Part shown: piece by piece, positions 4,986 through 14,852 of the stretch
How the letters are laid out: every line of letters starts with the position of its first letter
How positions within the stretch are numbered: position 1 is the stretch's first letter
Assembly: GCF_004138165.1 (NCBI RefSeq)
Contig: NZ_RYFF01000002.1
Location: 62,001-126,000 of the forward strand
Reading direction: 5' to 3'
Source: Candidatus Chloroploca sp. Khr17
Lineage (GTDB): Bacteria > Chloroflexota > Chloroflexia > Chloroflexales > Chloroflexaceae
Length of the DNA stretch: 64,000 nt
The notes under the pieces: model-generated
Told to the model about the DNA's origin: nothing
Database searches by the model: none
What the model saw: only the letters and a program-made list of their open reading frames with translations
Translations under genes and position numbers: made by a program

Positions 4986-5909
4986 TTAAATGACGCGTAA
5001 AATCATAATAAATTCAAGCTCGTTTTTGAGCGTCATTTCAATATCAAATGGCAATGTAAAGTCGCGCCTTAAAATTACCAGAAGCTCAAGCAATTCAAAT
5101 TGCGTCCAGGCGTGATAGTGGATGCTGTAATCTATATCCAACAGAAAAGTGACGTGTTGGGCAATCGCTTCTTCCCCTTCGACTTTATGGACAAATTGAG
5201 TCCACTCTTCAAAATGTTGATGCTTTGACCAGGCCGATCCTTCGGCATGATCACGCAACAGATGTTCAATGCTGGTTGACGGGCGCTCATGGTCAAAGGT
5301 AAAGCGTTTATCGGGAACAGCCAGGTAGAGGAAGCCTCCGCGCTTCAAGACACGTAACAGATTTTTGATCGTGCCAATGGGATCCTCGCAATGTTCAAGG
5401 AAATGATTGGCAATCACAAAATCTTGCGACTCACTGGCAATGGTTGTTAATGTTTCACCGTTGTCAATAATGTCTGGTTCAACCAGATCTAAATGTGCCA
5501 GTTCAGCGTAGTGTGTACGCAAATCGGCGACTGACATCCGATCAACATATTTGACATGGGCTGTGGGTGGAACTCGTAACGGTTGATTGAGTGCCCCGAT
5601 CTCAAGTCCTTCACCGTGGAGGTACCGCGATGCGGCGAGCCAACGCCCTATCTCGAAAGGTGTGGTAGGCACAGACTCGCTGGGAGGGACTTCTTCGCTG
5701 GGAGGGACTTCTTCGCTGGGAGGGACTTCTTCGCTGGGAGGGACTTCTTCGCTGGATAGGGGCGGTTCGGCACTTGAAACGGTGCTTGAGAGAACCGGGG
5801 GTGGTATCAAAAGGGCACCTGATGGAACCGGCATCGCAACAGGCTCAACTCCTGCTAGCGCACGGAAGCTTGCACGGAGGCGTTTTTTGACTCCATTCAA
5901 TCCTGACAT
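4986..5909 (-). CDS. SAM-dependent methyltransferase with N-terminal SEEVPP repeat
   Basis: 307 residues. The N-terminal ~80 residues are a Pro/Ser-rich linker with four copies of a six-residue SEEVPP unit (about residues 53-77), encoded by an 18-bp minisatellite. Behind it is a Rossmann methyltransferase: GLEIGALNQPL (SAM motif I), VEPDIIDNGETL, FVIANHFLEHCEDPI (motif IV with EH pair), and LRVLKRGGFLYLAVPD. Proteins of this kind often methylate sugars or lipids in surface-glycan clusters, which suits the neighbours. It is convergent with the GT2 gene at 4972, with only 13 bases between. Substrate unknown. Confidence 0.83.
   Translation of the reverse strand: MSGLNGVKKRLRASFRALAGVEPVAMPVPSGALLIPPPVLSSTVSSAEPPLSSEEVPPSEEVPPSEEVPPSEEVPPSESVPTTPFEIGRWLAASRYLHGEGLEIGALNQPLRVPPTAHVKYVDRMSVADLRTHYAELAHLDLVEPDIIDNGETLTTIASESQDFVIANHFLEHCEDPIGTIKNLLRVLKRGGFLYLAVPDKRFTFDHERPSTSIEHLLRDHAEGSAWSKHQHFEEWTQFVHKVEGEEAIAQHVTFLLDIDYSIHYHAWTQFELLELLVILRRDFTLPFDIEMTLKNELEFIMILRVI
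5678..5755. repeat. In-frame 18-bp minisatellite (4 full copies)
   Basis: Unit CGCTGGGAGGGACTTCTT repeats identically at 5678-5695, 5696-5713, 5714-5731 and 5732-5749, then six more bases. The copies are exact and lie wholly inside the methyltransferase gene. A gain or loss of one unit would change the protein by six residues without a frameshift. Confidence 0.95.
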
Positions 5910-9764: not shown

Positions 9765-9794
9765 TTGACAATCATCAGCGCAATGCGCTATACT
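9765..9794 (+). promoter_or_regulatory. Strong promoter for the 9937-12915 operon
   Basis: TTGACA (9765-9770), 18-base spacer, TATACT (9789-9794). A TATAAT on the opposite strand (complement of 9751-9756) faces the hydrolase gene, so the two promoters sit nearly back to back. Confidence 0.7.
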
Positions 9795-9936: not shown

Positions 9937-11004
9937 ATGGCTCAAGGCTCTGCCTGGCCTCCTGAACCTGATCTCCCGCCATCTTCAGCCCAGGAAAGTT
10001 CGTTTGATGACGAACAGCGCTTCAGTGAGTGGATTCAGAAGCGGTTGGCGATCTATCAAACACTTGAGCAGCAAATTCAAACGAGTATCCAGCAGACGGT
10101 GGAGTTTGGTGGTGAGTTTACCCGCCAGCTTGAGCAGGAGACCGAGCGCTTCATTGCGCGCTACCGGCGTCAGCGTCAGGAGCAGATCCAGATGCGCGAT
10201 GCTCTGCGCCAGGAACTTGCCGATCTCCGTATGGCTCTCGCTGAGGAACGCCGCCAGCACGAGCAGGCTCTGAGCCAGGCTCGTCATCAGGCCGACCAAG
10301 AACGCGCCCAGACACGCCAACAGGTGGCCGCCGAGGTTGCCCAGCAACGCGCTTCCGCTAAAGCCGATTGCGAACGCATGATCCGCGAGGCCCAGGTCGA
10401 GCGTGAGCAAATCCTTGCTGAAACGCAGCAGATGTCAGCCCAGTTGATGGATCTCCAGCGCTCGCTCAGCAATATGCTCAAGCCAATGTCTTCGGTCGGG
10501 TTGCCCCCGGCATCTACCTCTGAAGCAAAAAAAAAGACCGAGTTAGCTGAACGCTCGTATGCGCGTGTCAGTGAGGCACCGTCGACTGTTACTCCCCCTC
10601 CTGTTCGGGCGAACTGGCCTGAGCCATCGGTGCGTCCGTTTGCGCCCGATGCTCCTCTGTTCCAGCCAGATCCTGAACCTCAGCAGATCGTCGAAGCGAC
10701 ATCGTCCGGTGAGTCTGCGGTGGTGGTTGAACCCGCGCCATCTGCCGAACCTGCGTCGCCCACGGCTCCCCCTGAACAAACCGAATATATGGTGCATTTC
10801 AAAAATGTGCAGAGCTTTATCATTGCCTCGGATCTGCTTGATCGCATCGGTAACCTCAATGGGATTGAAAGCACGCGTCTGGTAGAGTACGAGCATCAGC
10901 AGCTCTCGGTTGCGGTGAGCTACCAAGGTGCTATTCCTCTTGAGCGTATGCTCAAAGAACGCCTGTCCGAAGTCACCGTAGTGGTTGACGTAGTTGGTCA
11001 GTAG
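9937..11004 (+). CDS. Coiled-coil protein with C-terminal ferredoxin-like domain (uncharacterised)
   Basis: 355 residues from ATG 9937 (GAGG at 9925-9928). The longer frame from 9841 would add a Cys-rich stretch that looks non-coding. Residues ~30-195 are a long charged coiled coil (many Q, E, R; a DivIVA/ATP-synthase-b-like look). A Pro-rich linker spans ~200-285. The last ~70 residues (YMVHFKNVQSF to VTVVVDVVG) show a beta-alpha-beta-beta-alpha-beta pattern like ACT- or NolW-size domains. No signal peptide or membrane segment. I do not recognise a family. First gene of a three-gene operon whose other products are membrane-anchored, suggesting a cytoplasmic scaffold at the envelope. Confidence 0.75.
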   Translation: MAQGSAWPPEPDLPPSSAQESSFDDEQRFSEWIQKRLAIYQTLEQQIQTSIQQTVEFGGEFTRQLEQETERFIARYRRQRQEQIQMRDALRQELADLRMALAEERRQHEQALSQARHQADQERAQTRQQVAAEVAQQRASAKADCERMIREAQVEREQILAETQQMSAQLMDLQRSLSNMLKPMSSVGLPPASTSEAKKKTELAERSYARVSEAPSTVTPPPVRANWPEPSVRPFAPDAPLFQPDPEPQQIVEATSSGESAVVVEPAPSAEPASPTAPPEQTEYMVHFKNVQSFIIASDLLDRIGNLNGIESTRLVEYEHQQLSVAVSYQGAIPLERMLKERLSEVTVVVDVVGQ

Positions 11005-11018
11005 CCTTCGCAACGCTG

Positions 11019-12497
11019 ATGACACGTCACCCTCAGCCATCAGACGCCTTTCTTATTGATGTTGCCAGTGATGGTCAAGCATTTCTTGTTGATACCCTGA
11101 CCGGTGTTGGCTATCAGGTGACCTTGCTCAGCCACGATCAGGTGCCGTTCCATCCTCTGGTGGAAATGGCTGCACTGGTTGTCGTTGGCAGTGCCGGTGG
11201 CGACACGAATGTCCTCATCAGCTATCGCCATTTTCATCATCATCCCCCGCTGATCATTGTTGATCCCGCTCAGGTGCGCCTGGCTGTCGGCTTCGAGCCC
11301 CTTCCTCCCGGGCCGCATCCCCTTGCTACTTTGCCTGCATTGCTCCGTCAACATCGGGGCCTCCCTGAGCCTGTGCCTTTCGCCGGGGTTGGTGGCGATG
11401 ATCCTCACTTTGATGCGCTGCTGAGGACGCAAGAGCCCCCCATGCCCGCCGAGGTAGCTGAGGCAACGGCCGAAGCGCCTCCTTCGCATGCCCAGGCAGG
11501 AGAAGAGTCCGTAGCGCCGCCTATGCCCGCCGAGGTGGCTGAGGAAGCGGCTGAAGCGCCTCCTTCGCATGCCCAGGCAGGAGAAGAGTCTGTAGCGCCG
11601 CCTATGCCCGCCGAGGTGGCTGATGTCGATGACGGGGAGTCTCTCGTTGGCCCGGGCAGTGAAGCCCCGCCTATGGCCGAAGAAGACCAGCGAGCTTCCT
11701 GGGATGATCAGCCGCGCACGTCTCCGTTCCGTAGTCCACTCGAAGAGGCTCTTGGGGCATATGGCAAGCCCGCTACTTCTTCGCCCGTAACACCTGATGA
11801 GGGGGCTGAGGAAGAACGTTCTGGCCCGGTTCTATGGGTCTGGTTGCTCTTTTTGCTTGGTGTGGTGATGTTGGTCGTCTTTGTGGTGGGCAACCTCATT
11901 GCGCGTCAAGACCCGCTTGCTGGGCAAACACCGGTGCCGACCGCTGTTCCAACGCTGCCGACCAGCATGGCCGAGGCTACTGCCCCTCCTTTGCCACCTG
12001 AGCCATCGATGACCGTCAATCCTCCGACCCGCGTTGTGCCACCGACGCCGACCTCGGTGTCTGCTATGGCGCAGATCGAGATCGAGATTGTTGCCGTTAC
12101 GCCTTCACAACCGCAGGTTGGTGAAAACGTCAATATTCTCGTTCAGGTGCGCAATGTTGGTACCATGCCCATCAACCAACCCTTCTGGGTTGATCTCTAT
12201 GTTGATCCTGATTTACCACCGGCGCTGGCCGTTGCCTGGCCCGAGATTGCCGAGTATGGCTCAACCTGGCGGGTTGATCGCTTGGCACCGGGCGAAGTCC
12301 GTGATCTTAATACCCTCAATGCCGACCCCGAACGCTCGAACTTTCTTGCGTTCTCCATCGCCCAGGAGTACGAGATCTATGCACTGGCCGATACATTTGA
12401 CGAGTTGTCAACTGACCCATCTTTTGATCAAGGTGATCTGTTGCCCCTAGCAATGATCACGGTGAACGTGGTAGAGAATGTCTCAACACAGCCGTAG
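11019..12497 (+). CDS. Bitopic membrane protein: pseudo-receiver-like domain, Pro repeats, TM, CARDB domain
   Basis: 492 residues. Residues ~8-112 alternate strands and helices like a response-regulator receiver (AFLIDVASDGQAFLVDTL, ALVVVGSAGG, PPLIIVDP) but lack a clear phosphoacceptor constellation. Residues ~140-200 carry two 27-residue repeats plus part of a third. A single membrane segment lies at ~270-291 (VLWVWLLFLLGVVMLVVFVV). Then come a Pro/Thr-rich spacer and a CARDB/beta-sandwich domain from ~352 (IEIEIVAVTPSQPQVGENVN) to the end, probably outside the membrane. No clear Shine-Dalgarno. The layout suggests a trans-envelope sensor or scaffold; function unknown. Confidence 0.72.
   Translation: MTRHPQPSDAFLIDVASDGQAFLVDTLTGVGYQVTLLSHDQVPFHPLVEMAALVVVGSAGGDTNVLISYRHFHHHPPLIIVDPAQVRLAVGFEPLPPGPHPLATLPALLRQHRGLPEPVPFAGVGGDDPHFDALLRTQEPPMPAEVAEATAEAPPSHAQAGEESVAPPMPAEVAEEAAEAPPSHAQAGEESVAPPMPAEVADVDDGESLVGPGSEAPPMAEEDQRASWDDQPRTSPFRSPLEEALGAYGKPATSSPVTPDEGAEEERSGPVLWVWLLFLLGVVMLVVFVVGNLIARQDPLAGQTPVPTAVPTLPTSMAEATAPPLPPEPSMTVNPPTRVVPPTPTSVSAMAQIEIEIVAVTPSQPQVGENVNILVQVRNVGTMPINQPFWVDLYVDPDLPPALAVAWPEIAEYGSTWRVDRLAPGEVRDLNTLNADPERSNFLAFSIAQEYEIYALADTFDELSTDPSFDQGDLLPLAMITVNVVENVSTQP
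11436..11625. repeat. 81-bp tandem repeat in coding sequence (2.3 copies)
   Basis: Copies at 11436-11516 and 11517-11597 differ at few positions; a third copy is cut short after about 28 bases. Each encodes a 27-residue unit beginning PPMPAEVAE and ending AGEESVA, within the cytoplasmic Pro-rich linker of the 11019-12497 product. Confidence 0.9.
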
Positions 12498-12915
12498 TCT
12501 CTTCCTCCCCCTTCTGCTGATCCTCCTGGTATTGATGATCGCCTCGGGAGGATATGCTGATGGAACAGGGGTGGTGCAGGCACATGTCAGTCCGCCTCGT
12601 GAGGCATATGGCGCAATGGTTAGCCTCCGCCCGACGCTTGATCCGACCCGAATGCCACTCACCACGCAGCCAGTTGAGACGATTCGCGCCGAATTGACGG
12701 CTACCGCACTGGCTCCTTCGCCGACCCCCACCGCAATGCGCCCAACCGTCACACGCACGCCTAGTGCCATTGCCACGGTCACCCCGACCAGTCCCCACGT
12801 TCCCCACGTAGGAGCCTCCCGTTCCTCTGCAGGATCGCTCGCTTTGCTCTGGATCGGGTTGTTCTTCTGTGTCGTAGGGCTTGTCTTCAAGTGGCTCAGC
12901 TCACAGCGTTCGTAG
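12478..12915 (+). CDS. Small exported, C-terminally membrane-anchored protein (unknown)
   Basis: 145 residues, overlapping the previous gene by 20 bases. Residues ~8-25 (FLPLLLILLVLMIASGG) form a signal peptide or first membrane segment. The middle is Pro/Thr-rich (PSPTPTAMRPTVTRTP), and residues ~117-138 (AGSLALLWIGLFFCVVGLVF) form a second membrane helix followed by a short basic tail. There is no sortase LPxTG motif. No family recognised. With the two upstream genes it forms an envelope operon ended by the hairpin at 12971-13014. Confidence 0.72.
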   Translation: MSQHSRSLFLPLLLILLVLMIASGGYADGTGVVQAHVSPPREAYGAMVSLRPTLDPTRMPLTTQPVETIRAELTATALAPSPTPTAMRPTVTRTPSAIATVTPTSPHVPHVGASRSSAGSLALLWIGLFFCVVGLVFKWLSSQRS

Positions 12916-12970
12916 CACGAGGCTCGCGTTGTTCAGCAGGCTGATGAACCCAGTCGGCAGGATCCGCTGG

Positions 12971-13014
12971 CCATCTGGCTTGATCGCGTTCGTAGCCCGC
13001 GACCAAGCCAGATG
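12971..13014 (+). terminator. Rho-independent-type terminator of the envelope operon
   Basis: CCATCTGGCTTG-TCGCG (12971-12988) pairs with 12998-13014, one wobble. It is followed by a T-rich stretch (GCATTTGTTTCTTTT), which makes it the most conventional intrinsic terminator in the window. Confidence 0.75.
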
Positions 13015-13430
13015 GGCATTTGTTTCTTTTATACAATCAGGCCGTGCTGAGATTGGATCTTCTCACTCTGGCACGAGGGCCAAGTGTCGCTTATGATGGA
13101 GTGTAATGTGCATGGGCAAATCGCTTGTCCAGACCCGCGCAAGGAGAGATCGACATCGTGGTGCGCCAGGTACGCGTGATACTTGTCGACATTGCAATGG
13201 CGCAGACAGTCGCAATCAACGGTTCAGCCCTTTCTGTATCTCGGAAGATATACAGAGTCCCCGGGGTTGACGTTTTCTCGTCTCTTCTCCCGTCCATCGC
13301 CCATCAGGGCTTTTCGTCAGTGCATTCGCGCCGTGTCGCGCCCCAGTATTGTCGCGCCGCCGCGTTGCGCAGGTTGGATCGCGTCCGCAGGACCCTGTCC
13401 GTTCTGTAGCTACACAAGGAGATTGGCTGT
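13015..13430 (+). other. Long leader/intergenic region before glnA
   Basis: About 415 bases without a convincing gene. It contains a possible small frame from GTG 13158 (AAGGAG at 13141-13146 is 11 bases upstream) running to 13409, about 83 codons, with no recognised motif. No certain promoter was found; CTGGCA with 18-base spacing to TATGAT near 13092 is weak. No known riboswitch consensus was recognised. AAGGAG at 13417-13422 serves glnA. Confidence 0.4.
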
Positions 13431-14852
13431 ATGAGTATGACCGCTAAGGACGTTCTCAAACTGATTAAAGACCATGACATCAAGATTGTCGACACCCGTT
13501 TTACCGATCTTTTCGGTGCATGGCAGCACTATTCACTGCCTGCCTCGCGGTTGACCGAAGATATGATGGAAGAGGGTCTGGGGTTTGACGGTTCATCAAT
13601 TAAGGGTTTTCAGGTGATCAACGAGAGCGATATGCTCATGGTGCCTGATCCCAGTTCGGCCTTTGTTGATACGACGCTCGGGGTGCCGACGCTGGTGCTG
13701 ATCTGTGACATTATTGATCCTATTGTCCGCGAACCGTATTCACGTGACCCGCGCAATGTTGCCAAGAAGGCGGAAGCTTATCTCAAGAGCACTGGCCTTG
13801 CTGATACGGCCTACTTTGGCCCTGAGGCTGAGTTTTTCCTCTTTAGCGATGTGCGCTTTAGCCAGGCGGCTAATCACGGCTACTACTTCGTGGATAGCCC
13901 CGAGGCGGTGTGGAATACCGGTGCCGAGGTTCCTGGTGGCAACAAGGGCTATCGCATTCGCCACAAAGAGGGTTATTTCCCCGTGCCGCCCACCGATACC
14001 CTCCAGGATCTTCGTTCCAAGATGATCTTGAAGATGATGGAGTTTGGGATCGATATCGAACTGCACCACCACGAAGTGGCAACAGCCGGGCAGTGCGAAA
14101 TTGATATGCGCTTTGATACGCTGGTCAAGATGGCTGACCAGTTGCAGAAGTACAAGTATGTGGTGCGTCAGATCGCACGTGAGCATGGCTATAGCGCGAC
14201 CTTTATGCCCAAGCCCCTCTTTGGCGACAATGGCTCGGGCATGCACTGTCACCAGAGTCTCTGGAAAGATGGCGAGCCGCTCTTCTTTGATGAGACGCAG
14301 TATGCGCTGCTCTCGAAGATGGCGCAGTATTACACTGGTGGCATTCTCAAGCACGCCCCGGCCCTGCTGGCGATCTGTGCACCTTCAACCAACAGCTATC
14401 GGCGTCTGGTTCCGGGCTTTGAGGCCCCCATCAACCTGGTCTACTCAGTGCGCAACCGTTCGGCGGCCATTCGTGTCCCGACCTATTCGTCGTCGCCCAA
14501 GTCACGCCGCATCGAGTTCCGTGCCCCCGATGCGATGTGCAACCCCTACCTGGCCTTTGCTGCGATGATGATGGCTGGCTTGGATGGGATTATGAACAAG
14601 ATTGAGCCGCCGCCGCCGCTTGATGTTGATATTTACGAACTGTCGCCCGAAGAGAAGGCCGATATCCGCGGTACGCCTGGTTCGCTGAGCGAAGCGCTGG
14701 ATGCCCTTGAGGCTGACTACGAGTTCTTGCTGCAGGGCGGTGTCTTTACGCCTGACCTGCTCGAGGCGTATATTGATGCCAAGCGCCGTGAGGCTGTCTC
14801 CATTGCGCTGCGTCCGCATCCTTATGAGTTCTCGATGTACTACGACGCATAG
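13431..14852 (+). CDS. glnA: Glutamine synthetase, type I
   Basis: 473-residue dodecameric GSI, catalysing ATP-dependent glutamine formation from glutamate and ammonium in the cytoplasm. Signature regions: [10 protein letters not shown] (51-60), PEAEFFLF with metal-ligand Glu residues, [11 protein letters not shown] (~268-278), and NRSAAIRVP (~342-350). Tyr402 in DIYELSPEE occupies the adenylylation-loop position, so GlnE-type control is possible but not shown. The start is ATG 13431 with AAGGAG eight bases upstream. An ammonium transporter lies 2 kb downstream on the other strand, forming a nitrogen-assimilation locus. Full family length, no oddities. Confidence 0.98.

Follow-up and report, generated by a model that had tools for sequence, protein, structure and literature searches.

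Within a 64,000-nucleotide stretch of Candidatus Chloroploca sp. Khr17 (contig NZ_RYFF01000002.1, positions 62,001 to 126,000 of the forward strand; hereafter the window), three co-directional genes, called here genes 1, 2 and 3, form a real, compact and uncharacterised module whose parts are found in a genome all together or not at all. Gene 1 encodes a coiled-coil protein, gene 2 a membrane protein that joins a probable degenerate receiver-like domain to a CARDB-like domain, and gene 3 a small protein with a hydrophobic helix near each end. A fourth part, often unlinked to the operon and which the initial annotation of this DNA could not have seen, is a small soluble stand-alone protein of the same receiver-like type as the gene 2 domain. 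We propose, tentatively, that the operon encodes an accessory, pseudo-receiver-based scaffold or relay spanning the envelope.

Occurrence and integrity of the operon

Gene 1, gene 3 and the stand-alone gene were each detected in nine of the 158 genomes of the class, and these are the identical nine, seven from one family and two from another, distributed over five genera; because each genome scan scored only a restricted number of first-look candidates, the absences are not absolute. Gene 2 was read beside its partners in all nine. The order 1-2-3 was read in six genomes (G000, G001, G002, G021, G064 and G066) and is consistent with what was seen in G067, while G003 has the order 2-3-1. In G023, the gene 2 linker consists of an array of VIEPPPV repeats, at which the assembly broke, and the gene is therefore split over two contigs (L033/L034; C250, C1000). 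The profiles for gene 1 and the stand-alone gene were built without G064, G066 and G067 and recovered these three of the nine genomes blind. Two genera are mixed, the set being present in two of the six members seen of one (g5) and one of three of the other (g11), and members that lack one part lack all of them. The three genes thus keep together in relatives, the point on which the initial annotation had made their grouping depend. Naively, the chance of an identical set of nine is below 1e-14 and that of five genera among 78 is 5e-8, both values being too small because the genomes are related. A phylum-wide draw of 400 genomes gave six matches, five of them among the nine, and nothing credible outside the class; the sixth, in G260 (E 6.7e-4), contains a stop codon and was treated as chance.

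The reading frames were confirmed at the coordinates and in the order initially annotated (Table 1). Genes 1 and 2 are separated by 14 bases, and the overlap between genes 2 and 3 is 20 bases in five of the six genomes measured and 4 bases in the sixth. For the three genes, nine pairwise comparisons of three Chloroploca species gave ratios of non-synonymous to synonymous substitution rates (dN/dS) of 0.13-0.34, and a pair of genomes from another genus gave 0.22, 0.31 and 0.49. This purifying selection identifies genes 1-3 as real, selected and protein-coding. The flanking signals are less clear than the single strong promoter and conventional terminator first described. A good promoter-like site does lie upstream of gene 1, but the number of such sites is at the level of chance (3 found versus 1.5 +/- 1.3 in shuffled sequence). 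Similarly, a stable hairpin (-34.3 kcal/mol, z -5.05) followed by a T-rich tract lies 3' of gene 3, but a terminator scan found none on the plus strand and, since in two sister species the hairpin stands beyond an extra gene, it is not necessarily the terminator of this operon.

Table 1. Features of the operon and its surroundings (window positions)
Feature	Position	Strand	Description	Basis
Gene 1	9937..11004	+	355 amino acids; coiled coil 10000-10488, disordered linker, C-terminal ferredoxin-like domain ~10774-11001, no transmembrane helix	AlphaFold model, orthologues, hydropathy
Gene 2	11019..12497	+	492 amino acids; probable Asp-less receiver-like domain 11019-11354, linker, transmembrane helix ~11829-11885, CARDB-like domain ~12075-12494	
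Gene 3	12478..12915	+	145 amino acids; N-terminal hydrophobic helix 12496-12552, conserved block ~12628-12714, Pro/Thr linker, VPHVG-like site, C-terminal helix 12832-12888, basic tail	
Sigma-70-like promoter, TTGACA-18-TATACT	9765..9794	+	11/12 match	Consensus scan only
In-frame tandem repeat in gene 2 linker	11423..11623	+	81-base unit, 2.3 copies	Tandem Repeats Finder
Approximate scar of deleted operon-linked stand-alone receiver-like gene	12945..12960	.	Gene kept in both sister Chloroploca	Three-way intergenic alignment; gene seen in L029/L030
Stable hairpin then T-rich tract, possible terminator	~12968..13018	+		RNA folding

Elsewhere in the window (5677-5755), a perfect 18-base tandem repeat of 4.4 copies encodes SEEVPP repeats in a methyltransferase-like protein, and a variant of this array is present in the sister protein of L035.

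Domain architecture and the stand-alone partner

The N-terminal domain of gene 2 is matched by no Pfam family, and Response_reg (PF00072) is likewise missing from a set of seven gene 2 rows. When its profile was compared by hhalign with one of true receivers (20 receivers from the same genome, kept from 30), it gave a P of 1.9e-5 (probability 78; reversed-receiver control P 0.076) and the stand-alone protein a P of 5.8e-4 (reversed-receiver control 0.29), with unrelated-domain controls at P 0.12-0.6. The gene 2 domain and the stand-alone protein also resemble each other (P 2e-5, probability 77; reversed control P 0.17), in a comparison that had given a probability of 15 and a P of 0.0017 with fewer sequences and improved after rows were added. 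Sequence matches of the gene 2 domain in the PDB, all weak, are to CheY, response regulators or other receivers in 11 of 18 cases, to designed proteins in four and to other proteins in three, the three best being designed proteins of Rossmann or P-loop type. In a joint alignment with eight receivers, the phospho-acceptor aspartate is missing from all ten rows, its position being occupied by G, A, E, N, P or S. Judged by these comparisons, the domain is probably a degenerate receiver-like domain. In the stand-alone family, two of 13 proteins match PF00072 weakly (best E 0.024), and the single PDB sequence match (E 0.97) is to an unrelated protein.

Beyond this domain, the linker of gene 2 varies among genomes, and one strong hydrophobic helix separates it from the CARDB-like domain. 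CARDB (PF07705) is matched below threshold in the window protein (E 0.0012; 19.5 bits against a cut-off of 22.7) and, with E up to 1, in four of seven gene 2 rows, of which this match is the best. Homologous stretches in four other Chloroflexales proteins lie above the CARDB cut-off in two cases, at it in one and below it in one, and of 61 relatives, 46 have a match to gene 2, nearly always to the CARDB-like region and in reading frames that are different and often far longer. Surface proteins with CARDB domains in Chloroflexales share this extracellular domain with gene 2 but are encoded by long reading frames, the fusion to a receiver-like domain being seen only in the nine operon genomes. 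Profile comparison, the missing aspartate and hydropathy agree with the first description of the middle protein, in which a degenerate receiver-like domain would lie inside the cell and a CARDB-like domain outside it, joined by a single helix.

The product of gene 1 has the long coiled coil and small alpha/beta domain first attributed to it, both parts being modelled by AlphaFold. Residues 22-184 form a single continuous helix with per-residue confidence (pLDDT) mostly of 93-98, and residues 282-352 a beta-alpha-beta-beta-alpha-beta arrangement, in the element order of a ferredoxin-like fold (pLDDT 54-75); the linker between them is modelled as disordered and hydropathy reveals no transmembrane helix. 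The C-terminal domain has no PDB sequence relatives up to an E of 10. Its best structural match by VIA-align is a region of LepA (Z 8.8, root-mean-square deviation 2.8, 76 residues), with a Z of 7.0 for a de novo ferredoxin fold, and, this fold being common, such matches name no function. The third protein has, as first proposed, a hydrophobic helix at each terminus by which it would be anchored at both ends. Its conserved block reads RPTLDPTRxPLTxxPxxTIRAELTATA, the C-terminal helix is present in all eight copies listed and the basic end in most, and the sorting-like site is only xPxxG-like (VPHVG, VPHAG, VPNAG, IPAAG or MPESG). A search of phage families with gene 3 gave two weak matches, to families without known function, and no family in the databases searched covers gene 1 or gene 3.

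The stand-alone gene is present in one to four copies per operon genome and adjoins the operon in five of the nine (G001, G002, G003, G021 and G064). In both sister Chloroploca, it is the extra opposite-strand gene between gene 3 and glnA. The window species, alone among the three, cleanly lacks these ~600 bases, a whole gene, in the assembly (12915-13431 compared with L035 and L036) and keeps one copy elsewhere in the genome. Because the arrangement beside the operon varies by genus, adjacency alone was not counted as evidence. In four of the nine genomes, from two genera (the window genome, G001, G002 and G021), a stand-alone gene directly follows, on the same strand, a large sensor kinase with transmembrane helices and HAMP, HisKA_3, HATPase, normal receiver and LuxR-type output domains (Pfam; the kinases of G000 and G021 were scanned). 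At L047:9221-12424 and L049:8279-11425, the kinase is ~1050-1070 amino acids long, with N-terminal hydrophobic helices and a weak, sub-threshold nidogen-like match.

A tree of 14 stand-alone sequences, which leaves out two of the four G066 copies, groups them mainly by host; four of its 11 inner branches are well supported, and its long branches leave the deeper order unsure. The four family matches in G066 (L117, L118, L119 and L121) all lie off the operon contig, and one is interrupted by stop codons. In G021 (L049) and G066 (L117), genomes of different families, a stand-alone gene lies near a gene that by eye resembles that of isoleucyl-tRNA synthetase, and this may mark an old common location.

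Possible functions: scaffold, sensor or surface anchor

In the scaffold or relay that we tentatively favour, gene 2 would be the hub, with its receiver-like domain in the cytoplasm, one membrane helix and the CARDB-like domain outside. The gene 1 coiled coil, predicted to be cytoplasmic, would form oligomers beneath the membrane and display the ferredoxin-like domain, whereas gene 3 would be a short Pro/Thr stalk held on the outside, possibly as a sortase substrate. The stand-alone proteins would be mobile partners that dock on the hub or on each other via receiver-type surfaces without phosphorylation, and in some species one such partner would be made next to a sensor kinase. By analogy, the device might work as FrzS of Myxococcus xanthus is thought to, as a phosphorylation-independent docking platform that places some cargo at an envelope site. 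The trans-envelope assembly first suggested for these genes is in keeping with a single conserved operon and the predicted hub layout, but the general role in filament structure, gliding or wall growth attached to it is not supported. The set is found in only nine of the 158 class genomes, and two of the genera concerned include members without it, while gliding and filaments are reported across the Chloroflexales (in the cited part of PMC7332563) and Chloroploca itself is called motile, presumably by gliding (as worded in an excerpt of PMC6180586). This patchy occurrence speaks against the set being core filament, gliding or wall machinery there. A more specific version, in which pseudo-receivers from separate chromosomal places plug into a transmembrane pseudo-receiver/CARDB hub on a coiled-coil base, and thereby control, with no need of phosphorylation, the state or location of a module outside the cell, is doubtful.

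The function of FrzS requires the output face of its receiver domain, not phosphorylation (as stated in the section consulted of PMC1974792), and its Asp-less receiver-like domain and extensive coiled coil, which act by docking and localisation without phosphorylation, are of the same types as two of the parts encoded here (PMC1974792, PMC12632262, in the portions cited). However, FrzS unites both parts in one soluble protein, whereas they are separate genes in all operons read, and here one receiver-like domain belongs to a membrane protein whose outer part is CARDB-like, with further copies standing alone. TadZ/CpaE of Tad pili combines a receiver-like N-terminus with a MinD-like ATPase. It would resemble the present set in having a receiver-like domain in an envelope-associated positioning protein, but its ATPase has no counterpart, since Pfam finds no ATPase domain in genes 1-3 or the stand-alone proteins. 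In three Chloroflexales, no pili genes other than those for Tad pili have been reported, according to the relevant part of PMC7332563. With aspartate-less or pseudo-receivers in general (as treated in extracts of PMC4395418 and PMC12632262), the set shares similarity to receiver profiles and the lost aspartate. For the most part, those named in the available part of PMC12632262 are response regulators whose output is DNA-binding or enzymatic, whereas here the domain is fused to a transmembrane helix and a CARDB-like domain or stands alone.

Several observations weigh against the scaffold or relay. The beta4-beta5 region of the gene 2 domain is several residues shorter than in true receivers in the joint alignment and, together with moderate profile probabilities (29-85%), this means that the domain may be of another Rossmann-like type. 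The structure prediction initially recommended for gene 2 residues 1-112 yielded no fold (pLDDT 27-40, the input being three near-identical sequences), and the gene 2 model as a whole (mean pLDDT 38.8) was not used for the receiver claim. Co-occurrence counts depend on phylogeny, and the operon-linked stand-alone copy has been lost in the window species itself. Finally, the kinase is also found in genomes devoid of the operon, nearly full length in G006 (with a stop codon) and as its first two thirds in G012, and no stand-alone copy adjoins it in the neighbourhoods read of G003, G023, G064, G066 and G067.

The kinase is central to a less likely but serious alternative, in which the CARDB-like domain and gene 3 would detect the state of the surface or wall, the signal passing via gene 2 to a stand-alone protein that modulates the kinase with the LuxR-type output, and gene 1 being accessory. 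In its favour, the stand-alone gene stands directly behind the kinase in four of the nine genomes, and there is a precedent in the hybrid kinase ShkA, whose pseudo-receiver domain binds HisKA and blocks autophosphorylation (in the passage cited of PMC12632262). However, this adjacency is restricted to two of the five genera, the two operon-less genomes above have the kinase or most of it, and a long coiled coil would be unusual in a pure sensor.

It is rather unlikely that gene 3 and the CARDB domain of gene 2 themselves build or retain an external layer, fibril or adhesin that genes 1 and 2 would position at particular sites, for instance at septa or the ends of filaments. The CARDB-like domains, the succession of helix, stalk, xPxxG-like site, helix and basic end in gene 3, and the sortase genes in all nine operon genomes (the genomes in which they were counted) are consistent with such an anchor, as is the layer restricted to terminal cells in the related filamentous species Ca. 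Viridilinea mediisalina (described in a section of PMC7332563). Nevertheless, no gene 3 copy has a true LPXTG motif. In practice, the scaffold, sensory and anchor readings overlap.

That these are ordinary lineage-specific genes sharing an operon with no joint function would fit their restriction to five genera and the lack of a database family for genes 1 and 3, but is improbable given their all-or-none occurrence, which includes an often unlinked fourth gene and extends over two families and two patchy genera. A function in gas-vesicle positioning, or another accessory gas-vesicle function, is very improbable: PF00741 is found in seven of the nine operon genomes against 31 of 158 overall (naive hypergeometric P 1.6e-4), but no match was found in G066 and G067, the two operon genomes from the other family, 24 of the 31 gas-vesicle genomes have no operon, and the excess follows family membership. 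An obligate link, suggested by six out of six in a first set, was dropped once two of the nine operon genomes were found without these genes. Anti-phage defence was likewise rejected, PADLOC giving only weak matches to the gene 1 coiled coil (E 0.004 and 0.018) and none for the other six of seven proteins.

Little is known of the cell biology of multicellular Chloroflexales. Septal channels, pili anchored at septa, end-specific layers and filament sheets of unknown nature have been seen by cryo-tomography, and homologues of cyanobacterial septal-junction genes were not found (both in the cited part of PMC7332563). Literature text searches, in these wordings only, returned no paper pairing CARDB with a receiver domain or Chloroflexus with a pseudo-receiver. 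An all-or-none set that combines a coiled coil with a predicted membrane hub is a candidate for a place-specific structure or its control, and would broaden the range of known pseudo-receiver attachments. If true, the plug-in hub would be a machine of a new kind, derived from two-component systems, and might mark septa or the ends of filaments in multicellular Chloroflexales.

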